A stretch of 37,139 nt of DNA from Alicyclobacillus sp. (GTDB lineage Bacteria > Bacillota > Bacilli > Alicyclobacillales > Alicyclobacillaceae): the NCBI RefSeq assembly GCF_023511815.1, contig NZ_JAIMAV010000021.1, positions 1 through 37,139 of the forward strand. The letters run 5' to 3'. The notes beneath the pieces are model-generated. The model was not told the DNA's origin. It saw nothing but the letters and a program-made list of their open reading frames with translations, and did no database searches. Below, piece by piece: positions 983 to 24,257 of this stretch. The stretch's first letter is position 1. Each line of letters starts with the position of its first letter. A program made the translations under genes and the position numbers.

Positions 983-3922
983 TCAGGTGCGGTTGCCCTC
1001 GGGAAGTCCGCCCGGCCACAGCAGATCCGGAAGCGCGGTGCTGTTGCCGCCATCCGTGCCGTGCTTGCCGTGGCCGTGCCCGGGCTTGACGGAGCCGTCG
1101 GTGGTGTTGCCGGTCCCAGTGCCGCCTCCGGTGCCCCCCGCGCCGCCGGTCCCGCCGGTCGCGTTGCCTGTCGACCCATCGCCGGACGATCCGGTGGTGT
1201 TGCCCGTCCCCTCCCCCGGGGCGCTGGCCGGAACGACGACGGGCACCGGCTGCGACGGCGGAGAGATGCCGCTGGCCGACATGGCGTACACCTGGTAATA
1301 CACGGTGCCTCCCGCCGGGGGCAGATGGGTGTCGGTGAACGCGGTGCCGGAGATGGGGCCGGCGATGCTGACGTACGGTCCGCCCGGCGCGTCTGCGCGC
1401 CAGACGGTGTACCCGGTGGCACCGGGCACCGCGCTCCACTGGATCCGCACCCCTGTCGGGGTGAGGGCCGCCTGCACCTGAGCCGGGGCGGGCAGCGGCG
1501 GTTGAACCGTCGCCTGGCCGGAGGGCGTCAGCACCTGGCCGCCGCGCGGATCGGCCTCGGTCGGCAGGTACTCGGCGCTGTCCGGGGTGACGGTGCCCGG
1601 CGGGACCGGTTCCGGCGGGATGATGAAGATGCCCGTCCGGATCTCACCGGGCGGTGTGTTGGTCGTCGCCAGATAACGCTTGCCGTTGACCACCGTGTAC
1701 AGCGCCTGAACGTGCGCGGTGCAAGGGCTGGCCGGCTCCGTGCCCTGGATGAACAGCTCTGTGTACACGTCCCCGTCCTGTTTGCACAGGTCGGTCGGCA
1801 GCATCCCCGACTTCTTGCACACCGCCAGGCTGACGATGCCGGGCGGCTGCGGGAACGGCGCCTTCGGCGGGTCCGCCTTCAGGATGGGATCCATGATCTT
1901 ATTCCACACCGTGAACTTCAGGTTGTACACATTGCGGTCAATCACCTGATGGTGGTTGTACCCCATCCAGATGCCGAGGGTGTATTTCTGCGTGTATCCG
2001 ATGAACCAACCGTCGCGCAGATCGTCCGTTGTCCCCGTCTTGCCCGCGATGTAATCGCCCGGGAAGTGCGCGCCGACGGCCTGCGCCGTCCCGCCCGGGG
2101 CGTACACGACATCGTGGAGGATGTCGGTCATCACGTACGCGGTCTGCGGCGAGAACACCTTGGTCGCCGTGGGCTGGAACTGGTAGAGCGGGTTGCCGTC
2201 GCGATCGACAATCTTGCTGATCAGGTACGGGTGGCGCCACACTCCCTGATTTGGAAAAACGGTATAGGCGCTGGTCATCTGCTGGACCGTCAGCCCGTTG
2301 GTCAGACCCCCGATGGCCGAGGCGAGATTCTGCAGATCGCCCGGTGCCAGGGTCGGCCGGCCATTGAGCGTCTTCGCGTCGGGCGAGATGCCCATCTTCT
2401 GCAGATAGCTCGATCCGATGGATCGGCTGTACCGGTCGTACACCTTGATGGCGGGGACGTTGTACGACGAGGTCAGCGCCTGCCGCACGGTGACGACGCC
2501 GTGCCACTCTCCGTCGTCGTCCTGCGGTGACCACGGCCCGTCCGACCCGGGATACGTCACCGGGGCGTCCAGGATGGGCGTGGCGGCGGTGATCCGGTGC
2601 TGGTCGATGGCCGGGCCATAGTCCAACAGCGGCTTGATGGAAGAGCCCGGCTGGCGCGGAATGATGGTGTGGTCCACGCTGTCCCGGTTGTAATCCCGCC
2701 CGCCGCCGACGGCCAGGATGCCGCCGGTCTCGTTGTCGATGAGCGTGACGCCCGCCTCGTACAGGTCGACGACCGGTTTGCCGTTTTGGGTGATGACCCG
2801 GTTGCGCTCATCCTTGGCGACCTGGTTGGTGTTGCCGAACAGTTTGTCGTCCGATAGCACGCCCTCCACCTGGTTTTGCAACTTCAGGTCGATGGACGTG
2901 TAGATCTTGTACCCGGCGGTCGGCAGCGCCTTCAGCGCGTCCTCCTCCGAGGCGTAGCGGCCCGACTGGACCAGATACTGCGCCACCAGCGGCCGGATCT
3001 CGTCAATCATCAGGTACGGGTGCTGGGCGTAGGCGCTCGTCTTGGGTTCGGGTTGAATGTCCTTTTTGATGTCGTAACGCAGCGCCGCCTGATACTGCGC
3101 CTCGTCGATCATCCCGTTGGCCCGCATCTGTTCGAGGATATAGTGTTGCCGGGAGATGGTGTTGTCCAGGTGATCGTACGGAGAGAACAGGCTGGCGTTG
3201 TTCGGGATGGCGGCCAGCAGCGCGGCCTCGGGCAGATTCAGATCCTTCGGGTCCTTGTGGAACAGAATCTGAGCGGCCGCCTTCACGCCGTACACCGGGT
3301 TGGAGCCCATCTGCCCCATGTACACCCAGTTCATGTAGTCCGTCAGGATCTCGTCCTTGGTCAACATATGATTGACCTCCAGGGCGAGGGCGATCTCCTG
3401 AATCTTCCGTTTCAAGGTGCGTTGCTGATCCGGGAATAAGGCCAGTTTGACCGTCTGTTGCGTGATGGTGCTGGCGCCGCTCTCAATCTGGTGATGCAGC
3501 ACGTCCTGCACGAAGGCGCGCGCCATCGCCATCGGGTTGATCCCGATGTTCTTGTAAAAGGTCTTGTCCTCGGCGGCGATGAAGGCGTTGACCAGGTTCT
3601 TCGAGACCTGGTTCACCGAGGTGATGGGCTCCCGGTCGCCCTCCGCCGTGAATCGCCCAATCACCTGACCGTGCACATCGTACACGACGGTGGGTTGGCT
3701 GAGATTGGTGAAGGTCTGCGGACTGATGGCGGGCAGCCCCTTGAGCATGGACGCGGCGTACCCGACTGCCGCGCCCGCCCCCGTCACCAGGAATGCCCCG
3801 AGCGCAGACGCCGCCACGGCCAGGCCACGCCACACCCAGCGGCGCGCTTCCCGTTTGGCGGCCCGCTCCCGCTGCCGCTCGGCCGGACGGCGCCCGGACG
3901 GTGGTCTGGTTGGATTGGCCAT
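983..3922 (-). CDS. Class A penicillin-binding protein (bifunctional transglycosylase/transpeptidase) with FN3 domain
   Basis: A 979-residue PonA-like enzyme that polymerises and cross-links peptidoglycan outside the membrane. A basic N-terminus is followed by one membrane anchor (about 33-57). The GT51 transglycosylase domain has the catalytic Glu in EDKTFY (E118) and ESGASTITQQ at 147-156. The transpeptidase domain has SSIK (nucleophile S427), SYN (486-488) and KTGT (628-631). A fibronectin type III domain (about 810-897) and a disordered Gly/Thr/Ser/Asn tail, with a His-Gly patch, end the protein. The ATG has an AGGAG-like site about 13 bases upstream, rather far. A good minus-strand promoter lies at 3952-3960, back to back with that of tyrS. 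Both catalytic domains look intact. The exact paralogue (ponA, pbpF or pbpG type) cannot be settled here; the FN3 plus Gly-rich tail favours the ponA type. Confidence 0.95.
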   Translation of the reverse strand: MANPTRPPSGRRPAERQRERAAKREARRWVWRGLAVAASALGAFLVTGAGAAVGYAASMLKGLPAISPQTFTNLSQPTVVYDVHGQVIGRFTAEGDREPITSVNQVSKNLVNAFIAAEDKTFYKNIGINPMAMARAFVQDVLHHQIESGASTITQQTVKLALFPDQQRTLKRKIQEIALALEVNHMLTKDEILTDYMNWVYMGQMGSNPVYGVKAAAQILFHKDPKDLNLPEAALLAAIPNNASLFSPYDHLDNTISRQHYILEQMRANGMIDEAQYQAALRYDIKKDIQPEPKTSAYAQHPYLMIDEIRPLVAQYLVQSGRYASEEDALKALPTAGYKIYTSIDLKLQNQVEGVLSDDKLFGNTNQVAKDERNRVITQNGKPVVDLYEAGVTLIDNETGGILAVGGGRDYNRDSVDHTIIPRQPGSSIKPLLDYGPAIDQHRITAATPILDAPVTYPGSDGPWSPQDDDGEWHGVVTVRQALTSSYNVPAIKVYDRYSRSIGSSYLQKMGISPDAKTLNGRPTLAPGDLQNLASAIGGLTNGLTVQQMTSAYTVFPNQGVWRHPYLISKIVDRDGNPLYQFQPTATKVFSPQTAYVMTDILHDVVYAPGGTAQAVGAHFPGDYIAGKTGTTDDLRDGWFIGYTQKYTLGIWMGYNHHQVIDRNVYNLKFTVWNKIMDPILKADPPKAPFPQPPGIVSLAVCKKSGMLPTDLCKQDGDVYTELFIQGTEPASPCTAHVQALYTVVNGKRYLATTNTPPGEIRTGIFIIPPEPVPPGTVTPDSAEYLPTEADPRGGQVLTPSGQATVQPPLPAPAQVQAALTPTGVRIQWSAVPGATGYTVWRADAPGGPYVSIAGPISGTAFTDTHLPPAGGTVYYQVYAMSASGISPPSQPVPVVVPASAPGEGTGNTTGSSGDGSTGNATGGTGGAGGTGGGTGTGNTTDGSVKPGHGHGKHGTDGGNSTALPDLLWPGGLPEGNRT

Positions 3923-16320: not shown

Positions 16321-17061
16321 TTGCGAGGACTGCTGTTCGGCAGAAGGTCCGAGGACAAAAGCCAGCTCGACTCGTTGCTGGCTCTCGCCCAGGCGGGAGA
16401 CGCGGACGCGCGCAACGCCATCATCGAGCAGTACACCCCGTTCATTCTGAAGGTCGCCTCGCAGGCGGCCCATCGGTATATCGATCGCGAGCGGGACGAT
16501 GAGTACAGCGTGGCGCTGATGGCCATGAACGAGGCCATCGACCGGTTCGATCCGGCGCGCCGCGTGAACTTCCTCGGGTTCGCGGAGACCATCATCCGCC
16601 GCCGTCTCATCGACTATTTCCGCGCTCAGAAGGCGCAGGCCAAGGCGGTTCCCTGGACCGAGTTCGATGTGACCGATGAAGAGGACAACGTGGTCAACTT
16701 CGTCGAGGTCAGGACCTCCGTCGAGGCACATGATGAGGCGCAGACGCGCGCCGAGCGCCAGACGGAGATCGCGGAGTACGCGCGGACGCTCGCCGAGTAC
16801 GGCCTGTCCTTCGCGGAGCTGGTGGAGGTCTCTCCGAAGCACGCGGACGCGCGGGCGAACGCCATCTCGGTGGCCAAGGCGGTGGTGGCGGACGAGCAGT
16901 TGCGCAACTATGTGCTGGAGCGAAAGGCGCTGCCGTTGAAGCTGTTGGAGGAACGCGTTCACGTGTCGCGCAAGACGATGGAGCGCCAGCGCAAGTACAT
17001 CCTGGCGGTCGTGGTGTTGCTGGCCGGCGACTTTCACCACCTGCGTTCATACATCTCGTGA
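16321..17061 (+). CDS. sigI: RNA polymerase sigma factor SigI
   Basis: A 246-residue SigI-type sigma factor, known in Bacillus for heat and cell-wall stress. Region 2 (about residues 15-105) has QYTPFILKVASQAAHRYID, then DDEYSVALMAMNEAIDRFD and FLGFAETIIRRRLIDYFR. The SigI C-terminal domain has FAELVEVSPKHADAR and a LLEERVHVSRKTMERQRKYI helix-turn-helix. I favour TTG 16321, 6 bases after GAGGTG; GTG 16312 overlaps that site but is possible. The anti-sigma gene rsgI starts 18 bp downstream. B. subtilis keeps sigI elsewhere; here it sits between ruvB and queA. Its activity should be held down by RsgI. Confidence 0.95.
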   Translation: MRGLLFGRRSEDKSQLDSLLALAQAGDADARNAIIEQYTPFILKVASQAAHRYIDRERDDEYSVALMAMNEAIDRFDPARRVNFLGFAETIIRRRLIDYFRAQKAQAKAVPWTEFDVTDEEDNVVNFVEVRTSVEAHDEAQTRAERQTEIAEYARTLAEYGLSFAELVEVSPKHADARANAISVAKAVVADEQLRNYVLERKALPLKLLEERVHVSRKTMERQRKYILAVVVLLAGDFHHLRSYIS

Positions 17062-17078
17062 GGGGAGGAGGGCGGAAC

Positions 17079-18527
17079 GTGCGAAGGAACGGCATCGTCC
17101 TGGAACTGCATCCGGAGTACGCCATCGTGCTCAGCCGGGATGGCGAGTTTTGCCGCATTCCGGGTACCGCCGCGATGGATGTGGGCGTGGAGGTGGTGTG
17201 GGACGCCGCGGCCGCGCCGGACGCGGGGCGGGACGCCGTGCGACGCCGAGTTCGCCGATCCCGCGCCCCGTGGCGCCGGCTGGGCTTCGCCGGAATGGCC
17301 GCGAGCCTGGTGGCCGCCGCCGGGATCTGGTTCGGCACGGGCATCACACGGCCGTCGGACGCCTACGCGTCGGTGGCGGTGGATGTCAATCCCAGCGTGA
17401 CGCTGCAGGTGGACCGCAATCTTCGGGTTCTCAACGCCTGGGGCAATGACGCGGATGGCGCCCTGCTCGTCAAGGGTCTGCAGTTGACGGGCCATCCCCT
17501 GCGCGTCGCGGTGCAGGAGGTGGTTGAGGCGGCGGGGGCTCGGCACGCGCTGGACGGCGAGGACGCCATTTTGGTCTCGGCCGCGCCCGCCACGGGCACG
17601 GCGGACGTGACGCGGGTCGAGGAGGCGGCGGCGGCCGCCCTGGCGCAGTGGACCAAAGCCACCGCGGCCGCCCCGCATCTGTACACCATCACCCTCTCGC
17701 CCGCCATCTGGCAGGCGGCCTCCACCGCCAAGATCTCTCCCGGCCGGTTGGCCGCCTATCTGGTTGCGGAGAAGGAAGGCGTGCACGTCGCGAGTGTGAA
17801 CGATCTGTCCGGCCCATCGCTGGTGCAGGTGCTGTCGAATCCGGTGGCGACCTCGGTACTGCAGATGTTGAGCGCCGCCGATGTCCGGGAGCTGGAGTCG
17901 TTCATCGACAGCCTGCACCTGGATCAGGGCGGTGCGGCGGTCGGCCCGAAGGATGGTGCGCCGAGTGGCTCAGGGCACGCGAATGCATCCGCCCCGTCGA
18001 CGGGCGTCGGGTCGCAGCCGGGCGCCGGCGCGCCGCAATCGCATCGAAACGGAACCGGAAACGGGCAGGGCAACGGACACAGCACCGCGGCGCACGGTTC
18101 CGGGAGACCGTCGGGCGCAGGGAGCAACGATGGTTCTTCCACGGACAACGGGCGCGGAAAGGGACAGGGGACGGGCGGCGCGTCCCGCGGGGATTCGAAC
18201 CCCCCGCATGACGACGGGCCCGGCGGCGGCGGGATGCGCATCAGCGGATCGGTCCACTCGGATGGCACCGTCGAGGTGCAGATCGGCGACCGGGTGATCT
18301 CCGTCCCGGTCGCCTCCGGCGTGTTGGGGGCCCTGGGGCAAGGGCGCTCTGGGAACCCGCCCTCCGGCAACGGCCAAGGGGCGGGGGTGATCATCACCGT
18401 ACCGGGGGCGGCCACCCCCGGTTCTGGGTCGGACAAGCCCGAAGGCCAGGGTAACGGACGTGGAAATGCGAATGGAAACGGAAATCACCGAGGAAATGAC
18501 GGTGGTGTTGGCCGCGATCACGGCTGA
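17079..18527 (+). CDS. rsgI: Anti-sigma factor RsgI with long disordered outer region
   Basis: A 482-residue single-pass membrane protein that binds SigI in the cytosol. The N-terminal anti-sigma domain (about 1-60; GIVLELHPEYAIVLSRDG) is followed by a TM segment (about 69-88). The outer RsgI domain has the conserved SVAVDVNPSVTLQVD; its Asn-Pro bond (N104-P105) is the autocleavage site described for RsgI proteins. A helical region to about 280 is followed by a 200-residue Gly/Asn/Ser/His-rich tail with no carbohydrate-binding module. Inside the tail, residues about 384-420 look ordered (MRISGSVHSDGTVEVQIGD). In B. subtilis a disordered RsgI tail is needed to sense wall defects. GTG 17079 has GGAGGG 6 bases upstream. 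A terminator follows the gene. Confidence 0.92.
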   Translation: MRRNGIVLELHPEYAIVLSRDGEFCRIPGTAAMDVGVEVVWDAAAAPDAGRDAVRRRVRRSRAPWRRLGFAGMAASLVAAAGIWFGTGITRPSDAYASVAVDVNPSVTLQVDRNLRVLNAWGNDADGALLVKGLQLTGHPLRVAVQEVVEAAGARHALDGEDAILVSAAPATGTADVTRVEEAAAAALAQWTKATAAAPHLYTITLSPAIWQAASTAKISPGRLAAYLVAEKEGVHVASVNDLSGPSLVQVLSNPVATSVLQMLSAADVRELESFIDSLHLDQGGAAVGPKDGAPSGSGHANASAPSTGVGSQPGAGAPQSHRNGTGNGQGNGHSTAAHGSGRPSGAGSNDGSSTDNGRGKGQGTGGASRGDSNPPHDDGPGGGGMRISGSVHSDGTVEVQIGDRVISVPVASGVLGALGQGRSGNPPSGNGQGAGVIITVPGAATPGSGSDKPEGQGNGRGNANGNGNHRGNDGGVGRDHG

Positions 18528-21840: not shown

Positions 21841-21962
21841 CGCAGTGGACGCGCTATGATGGCCCGCATGGCGCGGGCGACGAGAGAGAACGAAATGCGC
21901 GAGTCAGGGGTTTGGTCAACCTGCTGCGTGATTTCGCCCTCCCTGGTGTCGGGAGGAAGAGG

Positions 21963-24128
21963 GTGACCAACTTGGAATGGAACCGCGTGTACAAAGCCAT
22001 TGTGTACGAACTGGTGGTGGCCGTGGCCGGTTTTGCCATCGCCGTGGCCTCCTTGCCGAGCATCGATCGGCACCGCGTGCCCTTGGCGGTGTTGTTGGTG
22101 CTCGTCGCGTCCTTTTTGGAAGCCATCCCCGTCCCGCTCGGTAAAGCGTTCGGCAGCCTGATGCTCGTGGTCCCCCTCGGTGTCCTGGTGCTGTACGGAG
22201 GGCCCGCCGCCGTCAACCTGATCCTGTGCGCGGAACTGATTGGGCAACTGTTGTCCAGGCGGCGCACGATGTGGTCGACCTGGGCGTTCAACGGCGGACA
22301 GTACGCCATCAGCGCCTGGGTGATGTGGCGCGTGTACGCCTGGGTGACGGGCGGCCAGAACCTGATGATGACGGATGTGCGGGTGTTGGTCGGCGCGGTG
22401 GCCGGGGTCGTGGCGTTCCTCCTCGTCAACCACCTGTTCGTCAACATCCTCCAGGCGTTGCGCGGGAAGTTCTCCGTCAGCGAGATGCTGGAGCTTCTGT
22501 GGCATGACGGGTTCAACGTGATGCTGTGCCTACCGCTGGCGTTCATCATGGTCGTGGTCAGCCTGCCGTTCCCCTACCTGGGGGCGCTGATCACCCTCCC
22601 CATCGCCCTGGTCGGCCAGACGCTCCGGGTCTACCGGCAGGTGGCGGAGCTGCAACACGTGCACCGGGTGACGGCGCGGTTGGCCAGCGAATTTGACATC
22701 GACCGCATCTGTCAGGAGGCGGCGGAGACGGCGTGCGCCATCACGTACGCCGACGCGGCGGTCGTGTGGATCATGAATCCGGACGGAGACACGCTCATCC
22801 CCAACGCCATTCACCCGCTGTCGGAGGCGGAGCGGTTCACCATGTCGGGTCTGCGGCGCGAGGGCGGCGGGGTCATCTGGCATGTCACCCAGCAGGGATC
22901 GGGCTGGGTGTACATTCCCAACACGCTCAAGGATCCGCGGGTACGGTTCCGGCCGGAGGGGACCCTGTACCGCAGCATGGCCATCTTTCCCATGAACGCG
23001 CATGGGCAGGTGCAGGGGGCCATCGTCTGCTACGGAGAGCGACCCTACCAGTTCGGCCGGGATCGCGCGCAGCACGTGGAGACCCTGGCGGCGCAGGTCG
23101 GGGTCCTGCTGGAGAACGCCAAGCTCTATCAGTCTCTGCAGGAGCAGTCGTGGCGCGATGCGGCGACGGGCCTGTACAACTACCGGTATTTTTACCAGGC
23201 GCTCGAGCAGCACGTGCGCGAGGCCCGGGCGGCCGGGCGAGCGCTGTCGGTGGCCATTGTCGACGTGGATCACTTCAAAAAGTTCAACGACACCTACGGT
23301 CACCTGGCGGGCGACCAGGTGTTGCGCTCCCTGGCCGGAGTGTTGCGGACCCTGGCCGGACCGGACGCCGTGGTCGCCCGCTACGGGGGAGAGGAGTTCG
23401 GCATCATCTTTCCCGTCGGCACCGAGGAGGCCCTGGCGCGACTGGAGACGATCCGCCACGCGGCGAGCCGCCACGTCGTGGAGTACGATGGGTATCATCT
23501 GCAGGGGATCACCGTCAGCTGTGGAGTGGCGACCTTTCCCAACCACGCGGAGAACGACCGCGACCTCTTGGCGAAGGCCGACTCCACCCTCTACTGGGGG
23601 GCCAAGCAACGGGGCCGCAACCGCGTCGCGGTATACGGCCCCGAGTACGAGGCGCAGCTGTTCGTGGACGAGCTGACGGGCCTGTACACCTATCACTTCG
23701 TCACCATCCGCGTGCGCGAGGATTTTCAGCGCGGCTTTCGAACCTGGGGCGCGGTGTGCCTGGATCTCGACAACTTCTCGTTCGTCAACTCCGCCTTCGG
23801 CTTTGAGGTCGGCGACCGGGTGTTGAAGGAGACCGCTCTGCTGATGAAGGAGGCGCTGCGGCGCGACGAAATCGCCTGTCGGTACGGCGGGGATGAGTTT
23901 CTGGTGCTCATTCCCAACACGGGGCCGACGGAGATCGGCCACGTCGCCGAACGGATTGCGCGCATCATCAGCAATCACCGGTTTGAGTGCGGCGGCAGCG
24001 TGATGATCAACCTGCGGGCACGCGTGATCACGGCGTGTTATGACGATGTCGAGGATGTCACGGACCTGTTCGATCGCGTCGGCGCGGTGTTCGCCAACCT
24101 GAACCAGCATGTGACGGAAATGGCGTGA
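21963..24128 (+). CDS. Membrane GAF protein with two tandem GGDEF domains
   Basis: A 721-residue predicted diguanylate cyclase. Five or six TM segments lie within residues 12-215. A GAF-like domain (about 240-390) follows, then GGDEF 1 (about 395-555) with VDVDHFKKFNDTYGHLAGD and signature GGEEF (475-479). GGDEF 2 (about 565-715) has LDLDNFSFVNSAFGFEVGD and GGDEF (642-646). Both keep the metal-binding Asp and the GG(D/E)EF loop, so both may make cyclic di-GMP. Neither has an RxxD inhibitory site at the usual spacing. There is no EAL domain. The GTG at 21963 has GGGAGG 6 bases upstream. The neighbours are unrelated, and a strong terminator follows. The input signal is unknown. Confidence 0.9.
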   Translation: MTNLEWNRVYKAIVYELVVAVAGFAIAVASLPSIDRHRVPLAVLLVLVASFLEAIPVPLGKAFGSLMLVVPLGVLVLYGGPAAVNLILCAELIGQLLSRRRTMWSTWAFNGGQYAISAWVMWRVYAWVTGGQNLMMTDVRVLVGAVAGVVAFLLVNHLFVNILQALRGKFSVSEMLELLWHDGFNVMLCLPLAFIMVVVSLPFPYLGALITLPIALVGQTLRVYRQVAELQHVHRVTARLASEFDIDRICQEAAETACAITYADAAVVWIMNPDGDTLIPNAIHPLSEAERFTMSGLRREGGGVIWHVTQQGSGWVYIPNTLKDPRVRFRPEGTLYRSMAIFPMNAHGQVQGAIVCYGERPYQFGRDRAQHVETLAAQVGVLLENAKLYQSLQEQSWRDAATGLYNYRYFYQALEQHVREARAAGRALSVAIVDVDHFKKFNDTYGHLAGDQVLRSLAGVLRTLAGPDAVVARYGGEEFGIIFPVGTEEALARLETIRHAASRHVVEYDGYHLQGITVSCGVATFPNHAENDRDLLAKADSTLYWGAKQRGRNRVAVYGPEYEAQLFVDELTGLYTYHFVTIRVREDFQRGFRTWGAVCLDLDNFSFVNSAFGFEVGDRVLKETALLMKEALRRDEIACRYGGDEFLVLIPNTGPTEIGHVAERIARIISNHRFECGGSVMINLRARVITACYDDVEDVTDLFDRVGAVFANLNQHVTEMA

Positions 24129-24209
24129 TGCAAGCTGTGCGAGGGCGGCCGGGGGGCGGCGCATCCCCGGGGCCACGGCCCGTGGGGCCGGTGCAACAAC
24201 GGAGTTGCG

Positions 24210-24257
24210 AAACGGTGGAGCCCGCACCCAAGACGGGCTCCACCGTTTCTAGTTTTT
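24210..24257 (+). terminator. Strong intrinsic terminator after the GGDEF gene
   Basis: A perfect 15-bp stem (24210-24224 with 24234-24248, core GGTGGAGCCCG/CGGGCTCCACC) with a nine-base loop is followed by CTAGTTTTT (24249-24257). A smaller hairpin, GCAAC/GTTGC, lies just upstream (24193-24208). Confidence 0.92.

Follow-up and report, generated by a model that had tools for sequence, protein, structure and literature searches.

A tandem-GGDEF protein of the Alicyclobacillaceae with catalytic and putative I-site residues in different GGDEF copies

In tandem GGDEF-EAL proteins, a degenerate GGDEF domain acts on a neighbouring catalytic domain; there the partner is an EAL domain, whereas in the protein described here it is a second GGDEF domain. 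PopA is another degenerate GGDEF receptor alongside PssE, PelD and BcsE; none of the four is known to follow immediately on an active GGDEF domain in one chain. The role of degenerate GGDEF domains as cyclic di-GMP receptors is already established for PssE, BcsE and PelD. The degenerate GGDEF domain of Listeria PssE binds cyclic di-GMP by its I-site with a Kd of 0.79 µM (available part of PMC4125290), and those of BcsE and PelD also bind it via the I-site (accessible text of PMC7439463). A degenerate signature is compatible with activity, as in VCA0965, which carries AGDEF and is still active (according to the accessible part of PMC3974145), so we did not judge a domain dead from changes in its signature alone. 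The GAF-GGDEF cyclase Dcsbis (PA2771), for which the available part of PMC4937426 describes unusual product inhibition, resembles the present protein in having GAF directly ahead of GGDEF but has a single GGDEF domain, whose RxxD is blocked by a GAF loop. Among the open-licence papers listed by our searches, judged by their listings and passages, we recognised none on two GGDEF domains in one chain that divide catalytic and I-site residues between them.

The gene lies in a 37,139-nucleotide contig of Alicyclobacillus sp. (the window, meaning the whole stretch analysed), where it is flanked by yrzE and a DUF421 gene. Its features are as follows, with residue numbers of the window protein unless PleD is named.

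21951–21959, forward strand: Shine-Dalgarno-like GGGAGGAAG, read from the sequence, just 5′ of the GTG start
21963–24128, forward strand: whole gene, GTG start, 721 codons plus stop
21969–22682, forward strand: membrane region, residues 3–240, helices in the AlphaFold2 model; MASE9-like in some orthologues
22695–23114, forward strand: GAF domain, residues 245–384, Pfam GAF_2 4.7e-12
23151–23624, forward strand: GGDEF1, 134.1 bits; catalytic residues complete, no I-site
23385–23399, forward strand: GGEEF signature of GGDEF1, residues 475–479
23661–24080, forward strand: GGDEF2, degenerate, 84 bits
23859–23870, forward strand: GGDEF2 motif RRDE, spaced as an I-site, residues 633–636, corresponding to PleD R359–D362
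23886–23900, forward strand: GGDEF signature of GGDEF2, residues 642–646
23952–23954, forward strand: Arg664 of GGDEF2, equivalent of PleD R390 by alignment to PleD
24209–24249, forward strand: probable terminator of the tandem-GGDEF gene, 16-bp perfect inverted repeat, 9-nt loop, then TAGTTTTT

The open reading frame is a real gene; a chance frame or a mis-assembly was rejected by the full-length orthologues described below. The start at 21963 given in the preliminary description was confirmed as a GTG with a ribosome-binding-like site just ahead of it, and a longer TTG frame from 21813 had no Shine-Dalgarno-like site ahead of the TTG. The hairpin and the T-rich tract after it, which lie between this gene and DUF421 (24209–24254), scored z = −5.8 against shuffles and are probably a strong terminator, suggesting that the gene is probably transcribed apart from DUF421. 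No cyclic di-GMP riboswitch was found in the window, which gave zero Rfam matches anywhere. Elsewhere in the window, positions 17058–18527 encode an RsgI-like anti-sigma factor (Pfam RsgI_N, RsgI_M) with a long Gly/Asn/His-rich C-terminus.

The domain order is membrane region, GAF, GGDEF1, GGDEF2. Pfam GGDEF matched the protein at 1.7e-62, and GGDEF1 and GGDEF2 scored singly at 6.7e-39 and 1.7e-23. Of 19 orthologous N-termini, six matched MASE9 (Pfam PF20972), the best of them at 5.4e-6, and the N-terminus of the window protein itself gave no match to it at E ≤ 1. The structure prediction proposed earlier for the tandem yielded a helical membrane region, a GAF domain and two folded GGDEF domains (mean pLDDT 86.4; GGDEF2 blocks mostly 81–91), with the Dcsbis structure 4zmu as the best Foldseek match. 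The relative placement of the domains is unsure in this model because the pTM is 0.53.

Of 41 genomes from the family to which the window genome belongs, sorted into classes from tables of matches, 35 carry a full-length orthologue. The orthologue was short or cut at a contig edge in two genomes (G031 and G039) and lacked GGDEF2 in one (G021). In the latter (locus L120, about 1498–3200), the frame stops after GGDEF1 and DUF421 is directly next; yrzE was matched only partly. Three genomes (G017, G028 and G037) had no tandem-GGDEF gene, and in these yrzE directly adjoins DUF421; G028 gave only a weak partial match, at another place in the genome. The named relatives with the gene are Alicyclobacillus species and Tumebacillus permanentifrigoris. 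All 20 named loci that extend upstream of the gene, that of Tumebacillus among them, have the order queA-tgt-yajC-yrzE-gene-DUF421; a 21st named locus, L042, begins inside the gene and is outside this count. In each locus except L048, spoVB comes next. A recent insertion of the gene was rejected on this synteny. The preliminary description of an insertion between yrzE and DUF421 thus holds on a long time scale, given the three gene-free genomes, and not as a recent event: the gene already stood at this place in the ancestor of the family.

In a wider class sample, at least 35 of 398 genomes matched (28 of the window's family and seven of another, six of which hold a second, more distant copy), and in a phylum sample at least 1 of 398 matched (E 1e-40), the window's own genome; these are lower bounds, with up to two candidates scored per genome for the class and up to eight for the phylum. 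By eye, there were no other same-frame tandem GGDEF pairs among the best matches listed. Four proteins of the window genome contain five GGDEF stretches between them, and the genome gave one match each to EAL and PilZ. Two of its three other GGDEF proteins were compared by residue, L004 being left out by a coverage filter; one of them, L002 (G000:C87), has SGEEF, R in place of K332 and no I-site arginine.

Conserved positions are numbered hereafter as in PleD, by alignment, and their catalytic and I-site roles are taken from that protein. Several of these residue roles are listed in PMC12943098. The two domains stand in series as first described, each with a signature and the first metal aspartate. 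In GGDEF1, D327, K332, N335, D336, H340, D344, GGEE and K442 were kept in all 50 distinct sequences, paralogues included, so that the metal, guanine and phosphate residues accompany GG(D/E)EF throughout as in a diguanylate cyclase. Among 30 orthologues every catalytic position examined was invariant, except that R446 was K in one. An RxxD-type I-site was missing from GGDEF1: none of the 50 sequences combined R at −9 with an acid at −6 or had RxxD five residues ahead of the signature, and R at the R390 position was present but unconserved (12/50). Judged by sequence, GGDEF1 is very probably the only catalytic domain.

GGDEF2 showed a complementary pattern. The preliminary description regarded both domains as apparently intact, a view not borne out: GGDEF2 of the window protein has K332S, D336S and H340F and is missing the K..GRN motif (K442/R446). 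Among distinct GGDEF2 sequences, K332 and H340 were found in 0 of 48; among the 30 orthologues, D336 was kept in one and the K..GRN motif in none. This domain therefore lacks what a diguanylate cyclase needs (K332 and the K442/R446 motif) and cannot be expected to catalyse, because its catalytic residues are lost. In contrast, R359, R366 and R390 were each present in 48/48, and position 362 was an acid in 48/48 (Glu in 42, window protein included; Asp in 6). The numbers of GGDEF1 and GGDEF2 sequences differ because the domain search gave no second domain in L029, where a very degenerate one was seen by alignment, or in L120, which has none. Residues by which other GGDEF domains bind cyclic di-GMP are part of the conserved core of GGDEF2. 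The earlier statement that both domains are without RxxD at the usual inhibitory spacing is correct to the letter, but GGDEF2 has R-x-x-E at that exact spot together with the R390 equivalent, family-wide. The preliminary description suggested that product inhibition may be missing. Because GGDEF1 has no I-site and GGDEF2 keeps R359, the 362 acid and R390, inhibition may instead be exerted through GGDEF2; the RxxE could just as well be an I-site that is weak or dead. PMC12805367 names RxxE as one of the I-site variants that previous work reportedly found to relieve autoinhibition in cyclases.

Most GGDEF2 orthologues still have GG at 368–369, and G368 and G369 were changed in 8/48 and 9/48, respectively. 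The six paralogues (L126–L131), which form a second, more distant tandem-GGDEF line in a Tumebacillus-type family, have LD or MD in place of GG (LDDEF or MDDEF), all with exact RxxD. The orthologue L029 has AD in place of GG and K in place of N335, yet it keeps R359, D362 and R390, again an exact RxxD. The most degenerate GGDEF2 domains are therefore the ones that carry exact RxxD. In 62 other GGDEF domains, a comparison set chosen by similarity to the tandem family, R359 was found in 60, RxxD in 58, RxxE in none and R390 in 28. Since R359 and R366 occur very widely among GGDEF domains anyway, their retention in GGDEF2 may be ancestral.

GGDEF1 and GGDEF2 formed separate supported clades (100/94 and 100/100) in a tree that took in 34 of the 62 other domains, all but two of which (both from the window genome) were picked at random, and in which GGDEF2 was a long branch. 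Forcing both into a common clade cost 18.4 log units and was not rejected (AU p = 0.142). The domain phylogeny proposed earlier as a check for duplication therefore gives separate clades without rejecting a common one; both internal duplication followed by fast change of GGDEF2 and recruitment of another GGDEF domain are possible. Compared with A. macrosporangiidus (L036), dN/dS (NG86) was 0.131 for the membrane region, 0.127 for GAF, 0.059 for GGDEF1 and 0.152 for GGDEF2, values that are rough because dS (0.78–1.18) is near 1. GGDEF2 is under purifying selection and less constrained than GGDEF1.

GGDEF2 is most likely a degenerate regulatory domain, and what it would respond to is less certain. 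That it is a product sensor is a tentative reading, somewhat short of an even chance. Product sensing by the second copy would give just such a complementary pattern, with an active site but no I-site in GGDEF1 and the reverse in GGDEF2, and exact RxxD where the GGDEF2 active site is most damaged also speaks for it. The purifying selection on GGDEF2, its confidently modelled fold and the precedents of PssE, BcsE and PelD agree with this reading as well. Against it stand the Glu at 362 in 42 of 48 sequences, counterevidence as clear as the complementary pattern, and the one relative that has lost GGDEF2. The I-site is also not singled out in GGDEF2, since N335 and an acid at 370 are likewise kept in 48/48. 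The guanine-contact N335 and the 370 acid, with D327 (41/48) and G368 (40/48), leave room for nucleotide sensing. GGDEF2 could sense GTP or GDP and activate or hold GGDEF1, much as is reported for Caulobacter PdeA (CC3396) and its GGDEF domain. We consider this unlikely, as the phosphate-contacting K332 is lost in 48/48 and the K442/R446 motif in 30/30 orthologues, D344 is kept in just 29/48, the GG of the six paralogues is replaced and L029 lacks N335. An equally unlikely role is a structural or protein-contact one, with the conserved arginines and acid used for salt bridges or an interface. The retained fold, the purifying selection and RxxE instead of RxxD in most sequences agree with it, and the available text of PMC12805367 refers to growing evidence for I-sites in protein-protein contacts; R359 and R390 are, however, invariant together and RxxD is exact in the copies that have degenerated most.

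The preliminary description also suggested that the two GGDEF domains could build a single intrachain active site. Although both have a signature and the first metal aspartate, GGDEF2 of the window protein is missing K332, D336, H340, K442 and R446, its triphosphate-binding and catalytic-loop residues are absent in every relative examined, and a natural version has a single GGDEF domain. An active site built from both domains is thus unlikely, and we give the intrachain arrangement very little probability. Slightest of all is the chance that GGDEF2 is a decaying remnant without function: several relatives have degenerate signatures and G021 has lost the domain, but 35 full-length orthologues, a dN/dS of 0.15 and the invariant residues argue against it.

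The product-sensor reading corresponds to a membrane-bound sensor diguanylate cyclase with catalytic and product-binding sites in different GGDEF copies, a proposal that we rate a little below even odds. The membrane and GAF regions would bring two chains together, and GGDEF1 would pair with GGDEF1 of the other chain and make cyclic di-GMP, as its intact residues suggest. GGDEF2, judged by its lost residues, would not catalyse. In the least certain step, it would bind cyclic di-GMP or a related nucleotide via R633, E636 and R664 of the window protein and thereby keep the C-terminal ends in a state in which GGDEF1 is slowed, giving feedback by a neighbouring domain. With PleD/WspR-type cyclases, the protein shares the GGDEF fold, the GGDEF1 catalytic residues and the aligned I-site positions R359, 362 and R390, but it divides the catalytic and I-site residues between two GGDEF copies, and the acid at 362 is mostly Glu. 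PssE, PelD and BcsE have, like GGDEF2, lost catalytic residues and kept the I-site arginine and acid; GGDEF2 mostly has RxxE where those have RxxD.

The broader proposal, that an I-site-free active GGDEF1 is controlled by a catalytically dead, I-site-keeping GGDEF2 and that two paralogous lines have kept this arrangement throughout the Alicyclobacillaceae and the Tumebacillus relatives, is more doubtful, perhaps one chance in three. If GGDEF2 senses product for GGDEF1, enzyme feedback would have been transferred to a pseudo-enzyme copy, whether duplicated or recruited, where inhibition could be altered without touching catalysis, and the role of RxxE versus RxxD would become testable in natural proteins. 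If GGDEF2 is no product sensor, the protein would be a lineage-specific cyclase with an accessory GGDEF domain.
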